This document shows, piece by piece, positions 622 through 24,371 of a DNA stretch of 24,371 nt. The first letter of the stretch is position 1. Every line of letters starts with the position of its first letter. Origin of the DNA: a virus; the IMG/VR virus record IMGVR_UViG_3300001680_000220, positions 1 through 24,371 of that record. One strand, written 5' to 3'. The translations under genes were made by a program, and so were the position numbers. The notes under the pieces are model-generated. The model was not told the DNA's origin and made no database searches. It worked only from the letters and a program-made list of their open reading frames with translations.

Positions 622-3600
622 ATGGCTATCGAATGGCTTTCCTTGGCCGACCTAGCCGGGGCACCTCAACTCCGTATCGCAAGGGCCACAGATGTCGTTC
701 ATGTAGGAACTAACACGCTAACGAATACAAGCGTTGGCTCCGGCGGCGACCATGAGGGTGCCTGGGCCTTTATAGTAACTTTCTTTGAACGGTCTGGCAC
801 AGGAACTGTGCTTGGTGGGGCCGCAGGTGACACCCCTCAGGCGGGCACAGGCAATATCCATCCGTCCACAATCACGGTGCGTAACTGGACAACCTCCGCC
901 CCCGCCTATGCCACGGCAACTGGTGCTGGCGGGTGGATCGACTTCGGATACGCAAGAGGCGGCTACAGGAACAGAAACTATCTAAGCATCTGGGGAAAGG
1001 TTGTTACGCAGGACGACATCATTGATGACAGCACCGGGTTCAGGGCTGAGATAGTCCACTCTACTTCGATCACGGTGCAAGACAATGCAACCGTCACCTC
1101 TCGCCTATTCGTGGTTCTTGGAGCGAAGACCGACACGACCACTCAAGTTAGCGTTGGTAATATCGCCAGAGCGTTCATGAATGAAGTGCCAGAAACTACC
1201 ACCGGAAATGTTGGTAGTACTGCCGACAGTCCCGACAAGATCGTGTTCCCGAAGGGCACTGCTCACGCTGACTATGACGCTGACTTCTTGGGTAGTTCCT
1301 TCATGTCCATCTGGGCAGGTGCAACTCCAAGGAACTCTGCAAACATAGCCCTTGGTGGTACGAGTTCCAGTAGCACAACGAACACCTCCACCGCAGGAAA
1401 CGGTCCTGAACCCTCAGTAACGGGGAGCATGACGGCACAGGATGGCGGGTCAAACCCCGGTCCAAGTGCCTCAACCTACTCCGGCGGCCTGACTTGCCCA
1501 GCCCCAAATGACACGGTGAGTCCTACTGACGACTACAGTCTGTGGTATCCCTTTCCACTGCCATCCTCCGTCCAGGGTTCCTCGACCACCCATGGCGGGT
1601 TCGTCAATAACAACGCTTCCTCGATGAGCAGCGTTCTCTTCTTCAAAAACTTCACAGCGTTCACCGACTTTGACGATCCATGGGACACAAGCACCGAAGC
1701 CTACGCATTTGATGTCGCCACCGACACATTGTATGGAAGCGTCTCCGGGGTGGTCCTTCTCCCCGAAGAGGTTGCGGGTGGCACCACCCGTGTTGTCTCT
1801 GGTGCAATATCCACAGGCACAGTTAGCGCCACCGCTGTTGTCTCTAGCACCGCAACTACACAGACCGTCTCTGGTGCAGTATCCACAGGCACAGTTAGTG
1901 CCTCTGCTACCGTCACTGCCGTGGGGACTTCGACTCTAACGCCCTCCGCTTCTGTGGGTACAGTCGCAACCTCCGCCACGGCCACTGCGAACACTGGAAC
2001 AAGCGTGCTCACTCCGGCAGTTGCGGTAGGCACGGTGTCTGCTACTGCCGCTGTTAGCGCCACCACGGGGACAAGCACTCTTTCCCCCGCAGCAACTATC
2101 GGAGCAGTCGGTGCTTCAGCAACAGTCTCTTCGGCAACAGACACAAGCGCCGTATCCGCGTCGGTTGCGGTGGGCACGATTTCGGCCACGGCTGATGTAA
2201 CAGATATTCCTACAGTATCAGGGTCGGCTGCGGTAGGCACGGTGTCCGCTACTGCCGTTGTCTCTTCGGTAACTGGCACAAGCGTCATTTCAGGAACATT
2301 GTCAGCCGGGGCGCTGTCTGCTACTGCCACCGCTTCCAGTAGCACAACAACTGTAACAGCCACTGGAGCAGCGACTCTAGCAATATCCGCGTCCGCTCCT
2401 GTGGTAAAGCAAACGCCTACGGCGGTGGCATCGGGCGCTATCTCTATTGGCTCGATCGGTTCGTCAGCCACCCCGGAGACCACCAGTGCCGTCAGCGTTA
2501 CTGGTGCAATATCCGTAGGTGCAGTCAGCGGAACTGCTAGCGTTTCCAGCCCACGCCACTCTAAACAACTGAGTGCAGCAGCATCTGTAGGTACCTTTAG
2601 TTCTACTGCTTCTGTCAACTCTGTATCTGCCGGCGAGATCGTTGGCTCGGTAAGCGTAGGTGCCCTCAGCGCCACTGTTACCGCCTCTAGCACCACGACA
2701 ACTGTCGCCATCGGCGCGGCAATAGCGGTTGGGGCAGTAGGGGCAACCGCTACCGTGACAGCGGTGACTGGATCTTCCACGGTAGTGGCTCAGGTTTCGT
2801 TTGGCTTGTCCGCCTCTAGCACTGCGACCTCTAGCACCCCGACAGCGGTGGTGGCTGGCGCCGTTGGCATTTCGATTTCAGCGGCAGGTTCAGTTAGCCT
2901 GTCGTCGTCGGGCACCGTCGAGGGTACAATCTCTATTGGCTTGATCGGTGGCAGCGCGTCGGTTTTGACAGCAACTGTAACATCGCTGGAAGTGACCATA
3001 GACGGGGTTGGTGATCTAGCCCACAACCTCTTGAAAAGGAGCGAGATCGTGTCAGTAGAAGAAATATGGAATATCGGCCTGACCCAACTAGGGGTGGGAC
3101 GGGTAGCATCCGCAGACAATGACAATAGCGCCCAGGCTGCGCTGTTGAGGGACGTCTGGGACAACTTCAGACAGCAGTTCATTAGCGACCACGCATGGAA
3201 TGGGTGCAAGACAACGGCGGCCCTTACTGCCCTGCCGGACAGCGACTTCAAGGACACTACCCGCTGGGGGAATATCTTCTCTCTGCCCTCCGACTACATC
3301 CGAGCCCTGACGGTGAATGGGTACAAGAACCAACCGGACAACTCGGAGACTGTCATGTGGGAGATCGAGGCAGTGGCAAACTCTTCTGGTACAAAAAGCC
3401 GGTGCCTATGTACAAACCAGAGTTCCGCCAAGTTAGAGTATGTCTTTGATGTAGGGGACACGAGCACGGACCTCCTCTCCCCTGCCATGAAGCACGCCAT
3501 GGGCCTGGCCCTCGGCGCATTTGTCGCTCCGAACTTCGGCAAGTCGGCAAACGAGATCACGCTCATGGAGCAGAAGGTGAAAGAGGCGCTATTGAAGGCC

Positions 3601-3681
3601 AAGGGGGTTGACGGCCAGGAGAACTCAGCCAGGTACTTCTCGCCCTCGTCTCTGATCGAGTCTAGGTACAGGAGCCTGTAA
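622..3681 (+). CDS. Long repeat-containing virion protein with C-terminal tail tubular protein A-like (gp11-like) domain
   Basis: The 1019-residue frame has three parts. Residues 1-390 are beta-rich and unrecognised, likely a surface or receptor-contact domain. Residues about 392-789 are about 17 degenerate units of 21-25 residues with the pattern VSGAxSxGTVSATAxV, extremely rich in Ala, Ser, Thr and Val. Residues about 806-1019 resemble the T7 gp11 head-tail adaptor family (EEIWNIGLTQLG, then LLRDVWDNFRQQFI, and a helical C-terminus). Family members are normally about 200 residues and stand alone, so the fusion is odd. A Shine-Dalgarno site and GTG at 3049 suggest the adaptor is also, or only, made separately (see that entry). 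The stop overlaps the next ATG as TAATG. The ribosome site before 622 is weak (GGCGG). Confidence 0.75.
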   Translation: MAIEWLSLADLAGAPQLRIARATDVVHVGTNTLTNTSVGSGGDHEGAWAFIVTFFERSGTGTVLGGAAGDTPQAGTGNIHPSTITVRNWTTSAPAYATATGAGGWIDFGYARGGYRNRNYLSIWGKVVTQDDIIDDSTGFRAEIVHSTSITVQDNATVTSRLFVVLGAKTDTTTQVSVGNIARAFMNEVPETTTGNVGSTADSPDKIVFPKGTAHADYDADFLGSSFMSIWAGATPRNSANIALGGTSSSSTTNTSTAGNGPEPSVTGSMTAQDGGSNPGPSASTYSGGLTCPAPNDTVSPTDDYSLWYPFPLPSSVQGSSTTHGGFVNNNASSMSSVLFFKNFTAFTDFDDPWDTSTEAYAFDVATDTLYGSVSGVVLLPEEVAGGTTRVVSGAISTGTVSATAVVSSTATTQTVSGAVSTGTVSASATVTAVGTSTLTPSASVGTVATSATATANTGTSVLTPAVAVGTVSATAAVSATTGTSTLSPAATIGAVGASATVSSATDTSAVSASVAVGTISATADVTDIPTVSGSAAVGTVSATAVVSSVTGTSVISGTLSAGALSATATASSSTTTVTATGAATLAISASAPVVKQTPTAVASGAISIGSIGSSATPETTSAVSVTGAISVGAVSGTASVSSPRHSKQLSAAASVGTFSSTASVNSVSAGEIVGSVSVGALSATVTASSTTTTVAIGAAIAVGAVGATATVTAVTGSSTVVAQVSFGLSASSTATSSTPTAVVAGAVGISISAAGSVSLSSSGTVEGTISIGLIGGSASVLTATVTSLEVTIDGVGDLAHNLLKRSEIVSVEEIWNIGLTQLGVGRVASADNDNSAQAALLRDVWDNFRQQFISDHAWNGCKTTAALTALPDSDFKDTTRWGNIFSLPSDYIRALTVNGYKNQPDNSETVMWEIEAVANSSGTKSRCLCTNQSSAKLEYVFDVGDTSTDLLSPAMKHAMGLALGAFVAPNFGKSANEITLMEQKVKEALLKAKGVDGQENSARYFSPSSLIESRYRSL
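1795..2988 (+). repeat. About 17 tandem degenerate ~72-bp coding repeats
   Basis: Each unit encodes about 24 residues of the form VSGAISTGTVSATAVVSS followed by a short Thr/Ser spacer. Most units have drifted. The first two (1795-1830 and 1867-1902) differ at only 2 of 36 bases in their cores and are exactly 72 bases apart, which points to a recent unit duplication. Such Ala/Thr/Gly/Ser beta repeats are common in phage tail and decoration proteins, where they act as stalks. Confidence 0.85.
3049..3681 (+). CDS. Tail tubular protein A-like head-tail adaptor, internal in-frame start
   Basis: AAAAGGAG at 3034-3041 lies 7 bases before a GTG at 3049, in frame with the 1019-residue ORF. Translation from here gives 210 residues, close to T7 gp11 (196 residues), and begins almost exactly where adaptor similarity begins (SVEEIWNIGLTQLGVGRV). 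In T7 the adaptor forms a ring below the portal, followed by the gp12 nozzle, and the next gene here is a gp12-like nozzle. I infer independent initiation, with the upstream repeat protein reading through because no stop separates them. The alternative is a true fusion with a chance ribosome site. The ribosome site, frame and length are read from the sequence; the family call is from pattern recognition. Confidence 0.6.
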   Translation: MSVEEIWNIGLTQLGVGRVASADNDNSAQAALLRDVWDNFRQQFISDHAWNGCKTTAALTALPDSDFKDTTRWGNIFSLPSDYIRALTVNGYKNQPDNSETVMWEIEAVANSSGTKSRCLCTNQSSAKLEYVFDVGDTSTDLLSPAMKHAMGLALGAFVAPNFGKSANEITLMEQKVKEALLKAKGVDGQENSARYFSPSSLIESRYRSL

Positions 3682-18270: not shown

Positions 18271-18849
18271 ATGATCGGTAAGTTAGTAGTTGGGGCAGCA
18301 AGGCAAGTGTGGCGTGCAACTGGACGCCTTGCTGGACGCAGGTCAGGCAAGTTCTCTGGGGCCAACACCCTGAAGAGCCGTGTCAAGAGCACCGTCAGGC
18401 ATGAGGTCGATCTCATCCGTAGGCCGGGCCGAGCACATGGATACGAGACGCCTAAAATAGGCAAGCCAAGGACCAGGGCCCAAGGACACGCCGTCTACAA
18501 GAAGTCTCTCGGAGTGCCTGGCTTCAAGACAAGGGAGCACCACGCCTTCCTCAGCCAGCGAGCCCGTAACCGACTAGGGGCCGTGGTTGTGGCCGGGGCT
18601 GAAACAGCACGCGGCTTCGTTGGTGTCGCCCACTACAACAAGAAGGCAGAGAAACTCAACCGCAGCACAAGGCGGCTCGACGCTAGCACAGCGAAGATCT
18701 CTCGGGGCATAGCGGGTCGAAAGAAAGACCAGGAGTACTGGAAGAAGGCGGCCTTCGGCCCCAGGTCTAAGAAGATTGACTTCGATAGCCCTACCAGCAG
18801 GCAACTATCACCCGATAAGAAGTGGCGCATGAGTCCTTCAGGCTGGTAG
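18271..18849 (+). CDS. Basic protein of unknown function, last gene of late operon
   Basis: From the ATG at 18271 the product is 192 residues. The frame is open further upstream to a TTG at 18136, but that would overlap both the lipoprotein gene and the micropeptide, so the ATG is preferred. The N-terminus MIGKLVVGAARQVWRATGR echoes the basic amphipathic starts of the two other basic proteins of this cluster. A mildly hydrophobic Ala/Gly segment (GAVVVAGAETARGFVGVA) occurs at about residues 102-119. The C-terminus has an Arg/Lys-rich stretch (RGIAGRKKDQEYWKKAAFG). The last 12 bases overlap the 3' end of the convergent leftward operon. Confidence 0.65.
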   Translation: MIGKLVVGAARQVWRATGRLAGRRSGKFSGANTLKSRVKSTVRHEVDLIRRPGRAHGYETPKIGKPRTRAQGHAVYKKSLGVPGFKTREHHAFLSQRARNRLGAVVVAGAETARGFVGVAHYNKKAEKLNRSTRRLDASTAKISRGIAGRKKDQEYWKKAAFGPRSKKIDFDSPTSRQLSPDKKWRMSPSGW

Positions 18850-20967: not shown

Positions 20968-20971
20968 ACTA

Positions 20972-21592
20972 CTACTCCACTTCCTTCTTCTGACTTACAA
21001 ACAGCGGCCCACACCGCAACCTATTCTCTAACTCTTCAAGACCGTTCTCCCAGAACCAATCACACCCGTCCTCTGGGATTCCACTGTTCATACCACCCGG
21101 CCACCAACGCCTTAGCACCGTGTCCCTGGCAGCCCACCAGTAGATATGTCCAGCAATAAGATCGTCGATCCTTCTCTGCCAGCCCGGACTAATATAGCCA
21201 ACCTTTGGCTCGATCTGCGCTGCACGAATCACGGCAGTGACCCACCGCACAACACCACCTATGCGAGGCCCGGCAGCCGTTGGCCTACCCGTGTGCCTCA
21301 ATATCAAGTGGTGGTCAAGCCCCTCCAGAATCTGCTGGCTGGCTGCTGATATACCCGTGTTGTCAAGGGTACTGTGATCAGGCTCGTAGGCGTAAGGCAA
21401 CAACACAACGTCCTTGGACGCTTCAGTCACCATCACATAGGTTGCCTCGTGGTCAACACGATGCCTGTACACAGGGTTCAGGTTCCGCATAGCGTGGAAG
21501 CAGGTAATCAGATCAGTCTTCTGCCCCCTGACCCTGCGCTTCTCAACCATTGCCTGCACGTCTAGTACAGGTCTGGCTTCATCGCTTTCCAT
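20972..21592 (-). CDS. Unknown 206-residue phage protein
   Basis: AAGGAG lies 8 bases before the ATG. The gene overlaps the end of the upstream helix-turn-helix gene by 31 bases and stops 4 bases before the small membrane-protein gene. Visible features are a His-rich early region (HRVDHEATYVMV), a segment GLDHHLILRHTGRPT, several Trp-rich stretches near the C-terminus (HIYWWAARDTVLRRWWPGG; CDWFWENGLEELENR) and no signal peptide or membrane helix. I do not recognise a family. Its place between the regulator and the recombination genes suggests an early function. Confidence 0.7.
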   Translation of the reverse strand: MESDEARPVLDVQAMVEKRRVRGQKTDLITCFHAMRNLNPVYRHRVDHEATYVMVTEASKDVVLLPYAYEPDHSTLDNTGISAASQQILEGLDHHLILRHTGRPTAAGPRIGGVVRWVTAVIRAAQIEPKVGYISPGWQRRIDDLIAGHIYWWAARDTVLRRWWPGGMNSGIPEDGCDWFWENGLEELENRLRCGPLFVSQKKEVE

Positions 21593-22586: not shown

Positions 22587-22600
22587 CTCTCTGCTACCAG
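22587..22600 (-). repeat. 14-base repeat copy 1 (CTGGTAGCAGAGAG)
   Basis: On the - strand CTGGTAGCAGAGAG leads directly into the ribosome site of the 34-residue membrane gene. The same 14 bases recur at 23008-23021 inside the non-coding region. Confidence 0.5.
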
Positions 22601-22827
22601 GGTCGCTTGAATATCTCAAGGCGAGTGTCTCTGGCCTGCTTCTTCTCCCACAACACGGACTCAGGATCGTTGAGCACCGCCTCCCTAGACTTGTCGTCGT
22701 CAGCAACCCATTGCCTTGCCTGTTCCAGGGTGAGGCGAATGGCTACTGTAATGGGCGGGCCAAGCATCCAGGGGTCTTCACCATCCCACCCAGATCTTTT
22801 GATTACACCGTATTCGTCGCGACTCAT
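22594..22827 (-). CDS. Unknown 77-residue protein, first gene of the leftward operon after the non-coding region
   Basis: This gene has the best ribosome site of the leftward operon: AAGGAG ends 5 bases before the ATG in a GGAGAAGGAG tract. It directly follows the 780-base structured region, so its leader carries the 22-bp inverted repeat and one 18-bp dyad. The protein is hydrophilic, with a helix PPITVAIRLTLEQARQWVAD and a charged C-terminus (LWEKKQARDTRLEIFKRPW). No family is recognised. Being the first gene after a control-like region suggests early, regulated expression. Confidence 0.65.
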   Translation of the reverse strand: MSRDEYGVIKRSGWDGEDPWMLGPPITVAIRLTLEQARQWVADDDKSREAVLNDPESVLWEKKQARDTRLEIFKRPW

Positions 22828-22842
22828 GATATCTCCTTCTCC

Positions 22843-22860
22843 TGTTTGTCAAAAGAAACA
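22843..22860. promoter_or_regulatory. 18-bp dyad, copy 1 (operator-like)
   Basis: TGTTTGTCAAAAGAAACA is a near-palindrome (TGTTT and AAACA arms). It matches 15 of 18 bases of a second copy at 23020-23037 and ends 16 bases before the ATG of the 77-residue gene. On the - strand it contains TTGACA. It overlaps the left arm of the 22-bp inverted repeat. An operator for the XRE regulator is a reasonable guess. Confidence 0.45.
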
Positions 22861-23007
22861 AGGGGGTGCTGCGGATTCCCGACGTGAGTGACCACAACCC
22901 CTGGTTATTGATCTCGCCGGCAACCCAGTCCTCATCTCACAGGGCGGTAGGTGTCCGCTACGGGACGGGCCTCTTGGCCCGATTACCGCAGCACCCTCTT
23001 GTTTCTT
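22853..23007. repeat. 22-bp inverted repeat enclosing a multi-hairpin 111-base interior
   Basis: The arms at 22853-22874 and 22986-23007 pair over 22 positions. The single exception is G22863 opposite T22997, which would be a G-U wobble in a + strand RNA and an A-C mismatch in a - strand RNA. Inside are CGGGCC-TCTT-GGCCCG (22966-22981), GTGAG/CTCAC (22884-22888 with 22936-22940) enclosing CTGGTT/AACCCAG, and GCGG/CCGC near 22944-22958. The nested, branched folding looks like a structured RNA. On the - strand it would be a leader ending just before the ribosome site of the 77-residue gene. No flanking target duplication was seen, so a transposable element is less likely. Confidence 0.6.
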
Positions 23008-23021
23008 CTCTCTGCTACCAG
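23008..23021 (-). repeat. 14-base repeat copy 2 (CTGGTAGCAGAGAG)
   Basis: This is an exact copy of the sequence before the ribosome site of the 34-residue membrane gene (22587-22600). Here it lies between the 18-bp dyad copy 2 and the 22-bp inverted repeat and is followed by no usable open frame (GTG, two codons, stop). It may be a remnant of a duplicated gene start. Confidence 0.45.
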
Positions 23022-23037
23022 TTTGTAAAACGAAACA
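23020..23037. promoter_or_regulatory. 18-bp dyad, copy 2 (operator-like)
   Basis: AGTTTGTAAAACGAAACA shares 15 of 18 bases with copy 1 and the same GTTT/AAAC arms. It lies 12 bases outside the right arm of the 22-bp inverted repeat, so the two copies bracket that element about 177 bases apart. Confidence 0.45.
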
Positions 23038-23047
23038 GTCAGGCTTG

Positions 23048-23082
23048 CCCCGCTGTAGCCATGCTTATTCCACCTGGCGGGG
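23048..23082. repeat. Inverted repeat CCCCGC/GCGGGG
   Basis: Six-base arms at 23048-23053 and 23077-23082 with a 23-base loop. It has no T-tract and is not a classical terminator. Confidence 0.35.
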
Positions 23083-23147
23083 AGTCCCTCGTTTGATACT
23101 AATCGGGGGGTGTAAGTACTACTTGCCCTAACCGAACCGAGCAGTTT

Positions 23148-23166
23148 GAGTGGGGAACGCCCACTC
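23148..23166. repeat. Perfect 7-bp hairpin GAGTGGG/CCCACTC
   Basis: A 7-bp stem closes a 5-base loop (GAACG). Neither strand continues into a T-run, so it is not a standard intrinsic terminator. Confidence 0.5.
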
Positions 23167-23207
23167 TCACCTGACCATGCTGAACCCTGTAAGATCTGTC
23201 ACGCTCA

Positions 23208-23220
23208 CGTCGGGCCGACG
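23208..23220. repeat. 13-base palindrome CGTCGGGCCGACG
   Basis: A perfect dyad with a single central base. It is too tight for an RNA hairpin with all pairs formed, and is more like a protein-binding site. Confidence 0.4.
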
Positions 23221-23229
23221 CTACCCATT

Positions 23230-23271
23230 TCTATCGCTCAAGGGGGCGTGTCTATTCATCTCGTCGATAGA
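23230..23271. repeat. 7-bp inverted repeat TCTATCG/CGATAGA
   Basis: The arms at 23230-23236 and 23265-23271 enclose 28 bases. The right arm runs into the first 36-bp direct repeat. Confidence 0.35.
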
Positions 23272-23305
23272 CAAACGACTTAGGTTGATTCAGCAACTCC
23301 ACCTA
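23270..23305. repeat. 36-bp direct repeat, copy 1
   Basis: It begins GACAAACGACTTAGG and ends CAACTCCACCTA, with a small internal GTTG/CAAC stem. It is identical to copy 2 except for one base (A against G in the loop). The period is 58 bases. Confidence 0.85.
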
Positions 23306-23327
23306 TGTCCTCTTCAATGGTCGAGTG

Positions 23328-23363
23328 GACAAACGACTTAGGTTGATTCGGCAACTCCACCTA
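23328..23363. repeat. 36-bp direct repeat, copy 2
   Basis: 35 of 36 bases match copy 1; the copies are separated by 22 unrelated bases. On the - strand both copies include GGTGGAGTTGC and a TAA in the frame GGVAEST-stop. They could be phage promoters, iterons or a duplicated gene end. Confidence 0.85.
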
Positions 23364-23568
23364 GCACTACTACTGCCCGGCATTCGTCAATGAGCAACCA
23401 CTGACTACTACGACGGTCGTTCGGGAATCCCCCAGCATGAAGGCTCGCCCACTTGGGCTGATGCACTGCGTCACTCGGGTGTTTCCCATAGGAGAGGCAG
23501 AGCCATATCCCTATACCCCTTGCCAGGGGCACTGGTGCAATATGTAGCGACTTGTCACTCACTCCTGT

Positions 23569-23608: not shown

Positions 23609-24371
23609 CTATCTAATCGCCGCTCTAATCCGCAGCCTCTGCTCACGCAGATCCTTACGGATGAATCGACTCTTGCTTGTCCTTGCCGAACCCATGGGCT
23701 TCAGTAGCACCCATACATTTGGTGGGTCAAGGAACCTGAGGTCGTCGTCGTCACCTGGGTGTGTGCCACTCATGTCACCTTTACCATCCCAGCCAGTGAC
23801 CCTGTCCCTGACTACAACAGCAACATTACCGCCACTGGCCTTGACCCTGTACGCTGCCAGATCATTGGATGAACCAGCAGAAAAGGTGAGGCTGTATGGC
23901 TTGGGCCATGACGGATCTGTCATGTACCGCACCATTCTAGTTTCCACCTTCGTGTAGTCGTACCACTGTGTGGATGGGAACTCCTCAATGACCGACCGCA
24001 TGGATGTTTCTTCCCATGCTATGTCAGTGCCACCGTTCAGGCGCACCGCTGTTCTCCACCTGGTGTTTTCCTTGTGGCCTTTGCGTGCAGCCTGTTGTTC
24101 CAGTCTACCCACTTCATACCGAACCTGTTCACTGAACCACTGCGGGTCAGCCAACCACATACAGGTCTTGGCAAACATATAGTGCTGGCTGTCGCTCATA
24201 GCCAAGTGACCACTGGTTTTAGCCAGGCAATCAACCTTGCACTTGTCTGCGAATGGACAGGCGTTGTGACTCTCTATCCTGACGGTTAGTTCTTCACGGC
24301 TAACGCCGAACTTGTCAGCAACAGCAGCCACTATATGTTTGCCAAGACCTGTATGTGGTTGGCTGACCCGC
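23609..24371 (-). CDS. Cys-rich conserved phage protein (YDYTK / DLRFLDP family), 5' end outside window
   Basis: The frame is open to the right edge, so the GTG at 24331 is probably internal and the true start lies beyond. The N-terminal part has a Cys cluster (C-P-F-A-D-K-C-K-V-D-C, then TCMW) that may bind a metal or iron-sulfur cluster. The body has VRLNGGTDIAWE, FPSTQWYDYTKVETRMVRYM, YSLTFSAGSSNDLAAY, GGNVAVVVRD and DDDDLRFLDPPNVWVLLKPMG. This is a pattern I recall from a widespread phage and plasmid protein family of unknown function (YDYTK, NxAVVF, GDxxDLRFLDP). The role is unknown. It is the only gene of the window to the right of the structured region and is read in the same direction as the early operon. 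Confidence 0.7.
   Translation of the reverse strand, partial: RVSQPHTGLGKHIVAAVADKFGVSREELTVRIESHNACPFADKCKVDCLAKTSGHLAMSDSQHYMFAKTCMWLADPQWFSEQVRYEVGRLEQQAARKGHKENTRWRTAVRLNGGTDIAWEETSMRSVIEEFPSTQWYDYTKVETRMVRYMTDPSWPKPYSLTFSAGSSNDLAAYRVKASGGNVAVVVRDRVTGWDGKGDMSGTHPGDDDDLRFLDPPNVWVLLKPMGSARTSKSRFIRKDLREQRLRIRAAIR

Follow-up and report, generated by a model that had tools for sequence, protein, structure and literature searches.

The window analysed here, a viral DNA stretch of 24,371 nucleotides taken at its full length, carries genes on the plus strand up to position 18849, among them a tail protein, and a set on the minus strand which includes an HTH regulator, a YqaJ exonuclease (1.4e-20), an Erf annealing protein (ERF, 1e-15) and a GP88 homologue. 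Judging from the identities of these genes, the minus strand set appears to constitute an early operon. The relatives of the terminase, YqaJ and GP88 proteins are all less than 60% identical and are spread over many hosts, and the largest internal ORF tested in the plus strand region belonged to no family. A 359-aa open frame at 1701-2780 on the minus strand runs antisense to the repetitive part of a 1019-aa ORF (622-3681) and is probably a by-product of the codon use of the repeat.

Within the minus strand set, a small gene of 77 amino acids is preceded by a 155-nt element with a long terminal stem. The features of this region, together with those that were delineated by comparison with related phages (L001, L002 and L003, described below), are as follows:

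22853-23007, the 155-nt element: stem arms at 22853-22874 and 22986-23007 around a 111-nt interior
22986-23007, minus strand, 5' arm of the stem: AAGAAACAAGAGGGTGCTGCGG, starting with 12 nt (23007-22996) of ordinary phage trailer that L002 and L003 have without the element
22853-22874, minus strand, 3' arm of the stem: CCGCAGCACCCCCTTGTTTCTT, of which the outer 8-9 nt, TGTTTCTT (22860-22853), are part of the second leader copy
22875-22985, minus strand, interior: 111 nt, G+C 60%, predicted branches no better than those of shuffles, no homologue found
22863-22995, minus strand, minimal foreign insert of about 133 nt: 5' boundary taken from L002 and L003, 3' boundary deduced from the leader homology
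23021-23037, minus strand, leader copy 1: TGTTTCGTTTTACAAAC
23008-23021, minus strand, trailer copy 1: CTGGTAGCAGAGAG, the last bases of the 77-aa gene, its stop codon and the downstream flank
22844-22860, minus strand, leader copy 2: TGTTTCTTTTGACAAAC, 15 of 17 positions identical to copy 1, overlapping the 3' arm
22833-22843, minus strand, Shine-Dalgarno stretch of the 77-aa gene: AGGAGAAGGAG, outside the stem
22594-22827, minus strand, 77-aa ORF: assigned to no known family, shared with L001 (which has no element) and missing from L002 and L003
22587-22600, minus strand, trailer copy 2: CTGGTAGCAGAGAG, identical to copy 1 and located where the 77-aa gene ends
22590-22991, minus strand, exchangeable stretch (insert and 77-aa gene): replaced in L002 and L003 by about 456 bp with a gene of 142-144 aa

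Searches of Pfam, PHROGs and PADLOC assigned no family to the 77-aa gene. Upstream of the element on the minus strand lies a conserved non-coding intergenic stretch (23027-23406) which is 93% identical to L001, a higher identity than that of the genes on either side (74-88%). It contains two 36-nt direct repeats (23270-23305 and 23328-23363; 97% identical, 58 nt apart), possibly promoter or origin elements. A conserved potential hairpin, CCCCGCCAGGTGGAATAAGCATGGCTACAGCGGGG, is located just upstream of the element at about 23050-23085 on the minus strand; a search of viral contigs for its core 24-mer returned only L001, L002 and L003.

The arms of the element form a gapless 22-bp inverted repeat, AAGAAACAAGGGGGTGCTGCGG (22853-22874) pairing with CCGCAGCACCCTCTTGTTTCTT (22986-23007) on the plus strand, in which all 22 positions are paired, 21 of them as Watson-Crick pairs; the sole departure is the pair 22863/22997, a G-U wobble (G22863-U22997) on the plus strand and A-C on the minus strand. 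A first-pass annotation of the sequence had described exactly this stem, with its single non-complementary position, as part of a structured RNA of no recognisable class placed before a strong ribosome site on the minus strand, and these observations stand. The minus strand end of the element lies approximately 10 nt before the AGGAGAAGGAG-ATATC-ATG of ORF 22827-22594, and a search of the whole window with the Rfam covariance models returned no match at the gathering score. A permissive search returned only MIR529, a plant miRNA precursor, at 13.6 bits against a threshold of 75 (E = 5), and this alignment covers the long stem only. In 12 shuffles of the window under a dinucleotide model, the longest gapless stem of Watson-Crick and G-U pairs (loop ≤ 300 nt) was 13-16 bp, and the 155 nt fold far better than their shuffles, with z-scores of -7.7 on the plus strand and -5.6 on the minus strand. 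The stem scan found no similar long stem elsewhere in the window and no comparable one in the relatives, where the longest is 17 bp with loops near 300 nt.

The interior does not share this property. Folded alone, its 111 nt gave z-scores of -1.57 (plus strand) and -1.01 (minus strand), and 15 of 200 shuffles on the plus strand and 27 of 200 on the minus strand folded as well. The additional branches proposed in the first-pass annotation are therefore about what any sequence of that composition would give, and the claim of a specially branched interior is not upheld; the non-randomness resides in the inverted repeat, which alone needs explaining. The same applies to the suggested riboswitch or thermosensor, a cis-regulatory leader RNA controlling the 77-aa gene, which we now consider very unlikely. 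Its leader position and the strong global stability of the 155 nt would suit such a role, but the interior folds at the level of shuffles, Rfam offered no match and the element is not conserved with its gene, being absent from near-identical phages and from L001. Moreover, the Shine-Dalgarno stretch lies outside the stem and is little affected by it: in the folding model, on which these values depend entirely, its openness is 0.59 with the element and 0.52 after its deletion, and varies only smoothly with temperature, so that no structure hiding or exposing the ribosome site was found.

A plus strand transcript acting as a free or antisense RNA would draw on the somewhat better folding of that strand (-7.7 against -5.6) and on its retention of all 22 pairs. 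However, neither strand has a sigma-70-type promoter-like site between 22500 and 23700, there is no terminator-like site after the 3' arm and the relatives lack the element, so that this reading is highly improbable.

The origin of the element was approached by comparing the window with the only three relatives present in the collections searched, all of which are without the insert: L002 (4.4 kb), L003 (a contig of 6.1 kb) and the more distant L001, whose record (G001, 39.6 kb) carries a T7-type portal, a terminase and a D5-like primase. A search for further relatives through GP88 returned only L001 again. L002 and L003 are approximately 99% identical to the window upstream from 22992 and downstream from 22589; between these positions a different gene, 142-144 aa in length, takes the place of the interior and the 77-aa gene, both of which are absent. 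The junction reads ...TTTACAAACTGGTAGCAGAGAGAAGAAACAAGAG followed by AGGTGG... in L002 and L003 and ...TTTACAAACTGGTAGCAGAGAGAAGAAACAAGAG followed by GGTGCTGCGG... in the window. Since TTTACAAACTGGTAGCAGAGAGAAGAAACAAGAG is shared, normal sequence accounts for the 12 outermost nt of the 5' arm, which are present even where the element is missing; AAGAAACAAGAG, the outer half of this arm, is thus ordinary phage DNA. In L001, the 77-aa gene directly follows its leader with no element before it, and is itself followed by a similar tail, TGGTAGCAGAAGAGAAGAACAAGAGG, and then by a 158-aa gene. Elsewhere in the operon, L003/L017 has an extra 85-aa ORF (MARRLFEVKATRVHTHTESGD...) at about 2833-3099, compared with 20969-20985 of the window, which is absent from the window and from L002; its insertion in L003 indicates that gain and loss of single genes recurs in this operon.

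Two pairs of direct repeats bracket the region. The two leader copies, with the consensus TGTTTC(G/T)TTT(T/G)ACAAAC, lie one on each side of the insert, as do the two exact copies of the tail; read along the minus strand, the region runs leader 1, tail 1, insert, leader 2, gene, tail 2. The insert has a terminal inverted repeat of its own, a perfect 11 bp (GGGTGCTGCGG/CCGCAGCACCC; 22864-22874 and 22986-22996), the outermost pair of which falls on the last trailer base. With AAGAAACAAG in the tail and (C)TTGTTTCTT at the start of the leader copy, these flanks lengthen the 11-bp repeat to 22 bp.

A short orphan segment with terminal inverted repeats (11 bp perfect, 22 bp with the flanks), a G+C content slightly above that of the phage (0.60 against 0.55) and an absence from close relatives recalls a MITE (miniature inverted-repeat mobile element) that a transposase of the host would mobilise in trans. 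Like MITEs, the insert is non-coding and differs in presence between close relatives; unlike them, it occurs as a single copy in the window, is absent from the relatives including G001, has no known cognate transposase and takes half of its repeat from the flank, the outer half of the 5' arm being native phage sequence. Although the sequence looks inserted, the target duplications which the first-pass annotation had named as evidence against an RNA were not found: the longest match between the flanks is 5 nt, against about 1.2 expected by chance. Neither were copies or homologues of the insert found among phages, plasmids and viral contigs beyond chance seeds, and its translated frames gave no Pfam match of weight and no phage homologue. 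Both 11-bp arms at the correct spacing were found in none of the viral contigs scanned. The genome scan with two 10-bp arms at the correct spacing gave at least 119 matches, and those fetched were chance arm matches, none of which extends usefully past the arms. Two 16-mers from the interior had 11 and 92 matches in viral contigs; the best extension (23 nt, in L162) was rejected as a coding coincidence, with reading frames DLAGNP and VAGEI. Our search of the literature on MITEs in phages found nothing directly on point. A MITE is consequently an unlikely explanation.

A selected function for the stem in the early mRNA leader, as an RNase III-type processing or stabilising site at which cutting by the host enzyme would provide the 77-aa gene with an mRNA 5' end of its own, has more in its favour, and we regard it as possible though rather doubtful. 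Several RNase III-type stems occur in T7. The near-perfect helix of 22 bp, about two turns of double-stranded RNA, fits a generic RNase III substrate in length, lies right before a strong ribosome site and, in the folding model of the minus strand leader, forms 19 of its 22 pairs at a probability of at least 0.93. A stem of 12 bp can be enough for RNase III, which requires no strong consensus in the sequence (PMC8708148). With the R1.1-type sites of T7 and the lambda N leader, the element shares a long stem of RNase III size in the leader or intergenic space of a phage mRNA; unlike them, it is not conserved, stands alone and encloses a very long loop of 111 nt, and its cleavage is a prediction. 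The element is missing from the near-identical phages and from L001, where the gene is present, and no further such stems were seen in the window or the relatives, unlike in T7, which together speak against a needed function. In the model, a leader starting within the 3' arm would also pair with the Shine-Dalgarno stretch (openness 0.21, compared with 0.59), the reverse of what is expected if cutting activates the gene.

The element is a folded inverted repeat next to a single promoterless gene, in a region where genes are exchanged, and in this it resembles an integron gene cassette with its attC site. The attC core consensus is RYYYAAC / GTTRRRY. When compared with this consensus by eye, the ends of the element (AAGAAACAAG and CTTGTTTCTT) showed no such core motifs, and the tyrosine integrase family (Phage_integrase, PF00589) is absent from the record fragments G000, G001 and G003, the window and the record of L001 included. 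These two results weaken the proposal that the early genes are single-gene cassettes bracketed by a leader/trailer inverted repeat (TTGTTTCTT ... AAGAAACAAG), with the 133-nt insert as a folded exchange site that follows the attC principle with a different sequence and enzymes, and we give it little credence. An inverted repeat (a1/a2) is likewise part of retron ncRNAs, and the reverse transcriptase PF00078 was found in none of the same three record fragments.

It is extremely improbable that the junction is an assembly or library chimera. The same contig ends in a perfect 43-bp inverted repeat (24142-24184 and 24329-24371) which resembles a fold-back chimera, and no second copy of the junction occurs among the sequences compared; on the other hand, the arms of the element are imperfect copies around a unique interior, the direct repeats on its flanks, at 14 and 17 nt, fall below the usual assembly word sizes, and the 77-aa gene beyond the junction has a genuine homologue in L001. 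The GP88 homologue ceases to resemble L001 near 24334; the repeat at the contig end is probably a fold-back chimera, and the last 40 or so bases of the contig are thus not to be trusted.

We favour, with moderate confidence, a reading of the feature as an accessory junction left by recombination in a phage operon whose genes are exchanged one at a time, and not as a conserved RNA. Between a copy of the gene tail and the duplicated leader, a foreign piece of about 133 nt would have become lodged, bringing its own 11-bp terminal repeat; the observed order is what would remain if, besides the arrival of this piece, a tandem duplication had occurred and the first gene had been lost. Tandem duplication combined with illegitimate or single-strand-annealing recombination may have made the junction, and the Erf-like annealing and YqaJ/RecE-like exonuclease genes of the phage could carry out such recombination. 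The arrangement resembles moron or cassette exchange at short direct repeats in phages, with gain or loss of a single gene between 99%-identical phages and direct repeats at the boundaries; unlike the usual case, an orphan insert with an inverted repeat was left behind. Three observations count against a recombination junction. No relative has the exact flanks of the window without the insert, so that the comparison does not display the insertion as one clean event. The two half-arms derived from the flanks match each other over about 10 bp, an improbable coincidence that may point to selection for the longer stem. The G-U wobble, which keeps the plus strand helix whole, is also compatible with selection on an RNA.

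Were the early operon transcribed from the minus strand as its gene content suggests, the stem would form in the 5' leader, where it could be a target of host RNase III or a passive insulator, without itself covering the downstream ribosome site. A striking long-stem 'RNA element' can thus arise at a gene-exchange junction, with ordinary flanking sequence supplying half of the stem, and it was the comparison with near-identical phages that revealed this origin. Should the stem prove to be a site of recombination or a leader that is cut, it would provide a handle on the swapping and expression of small early phage genes.
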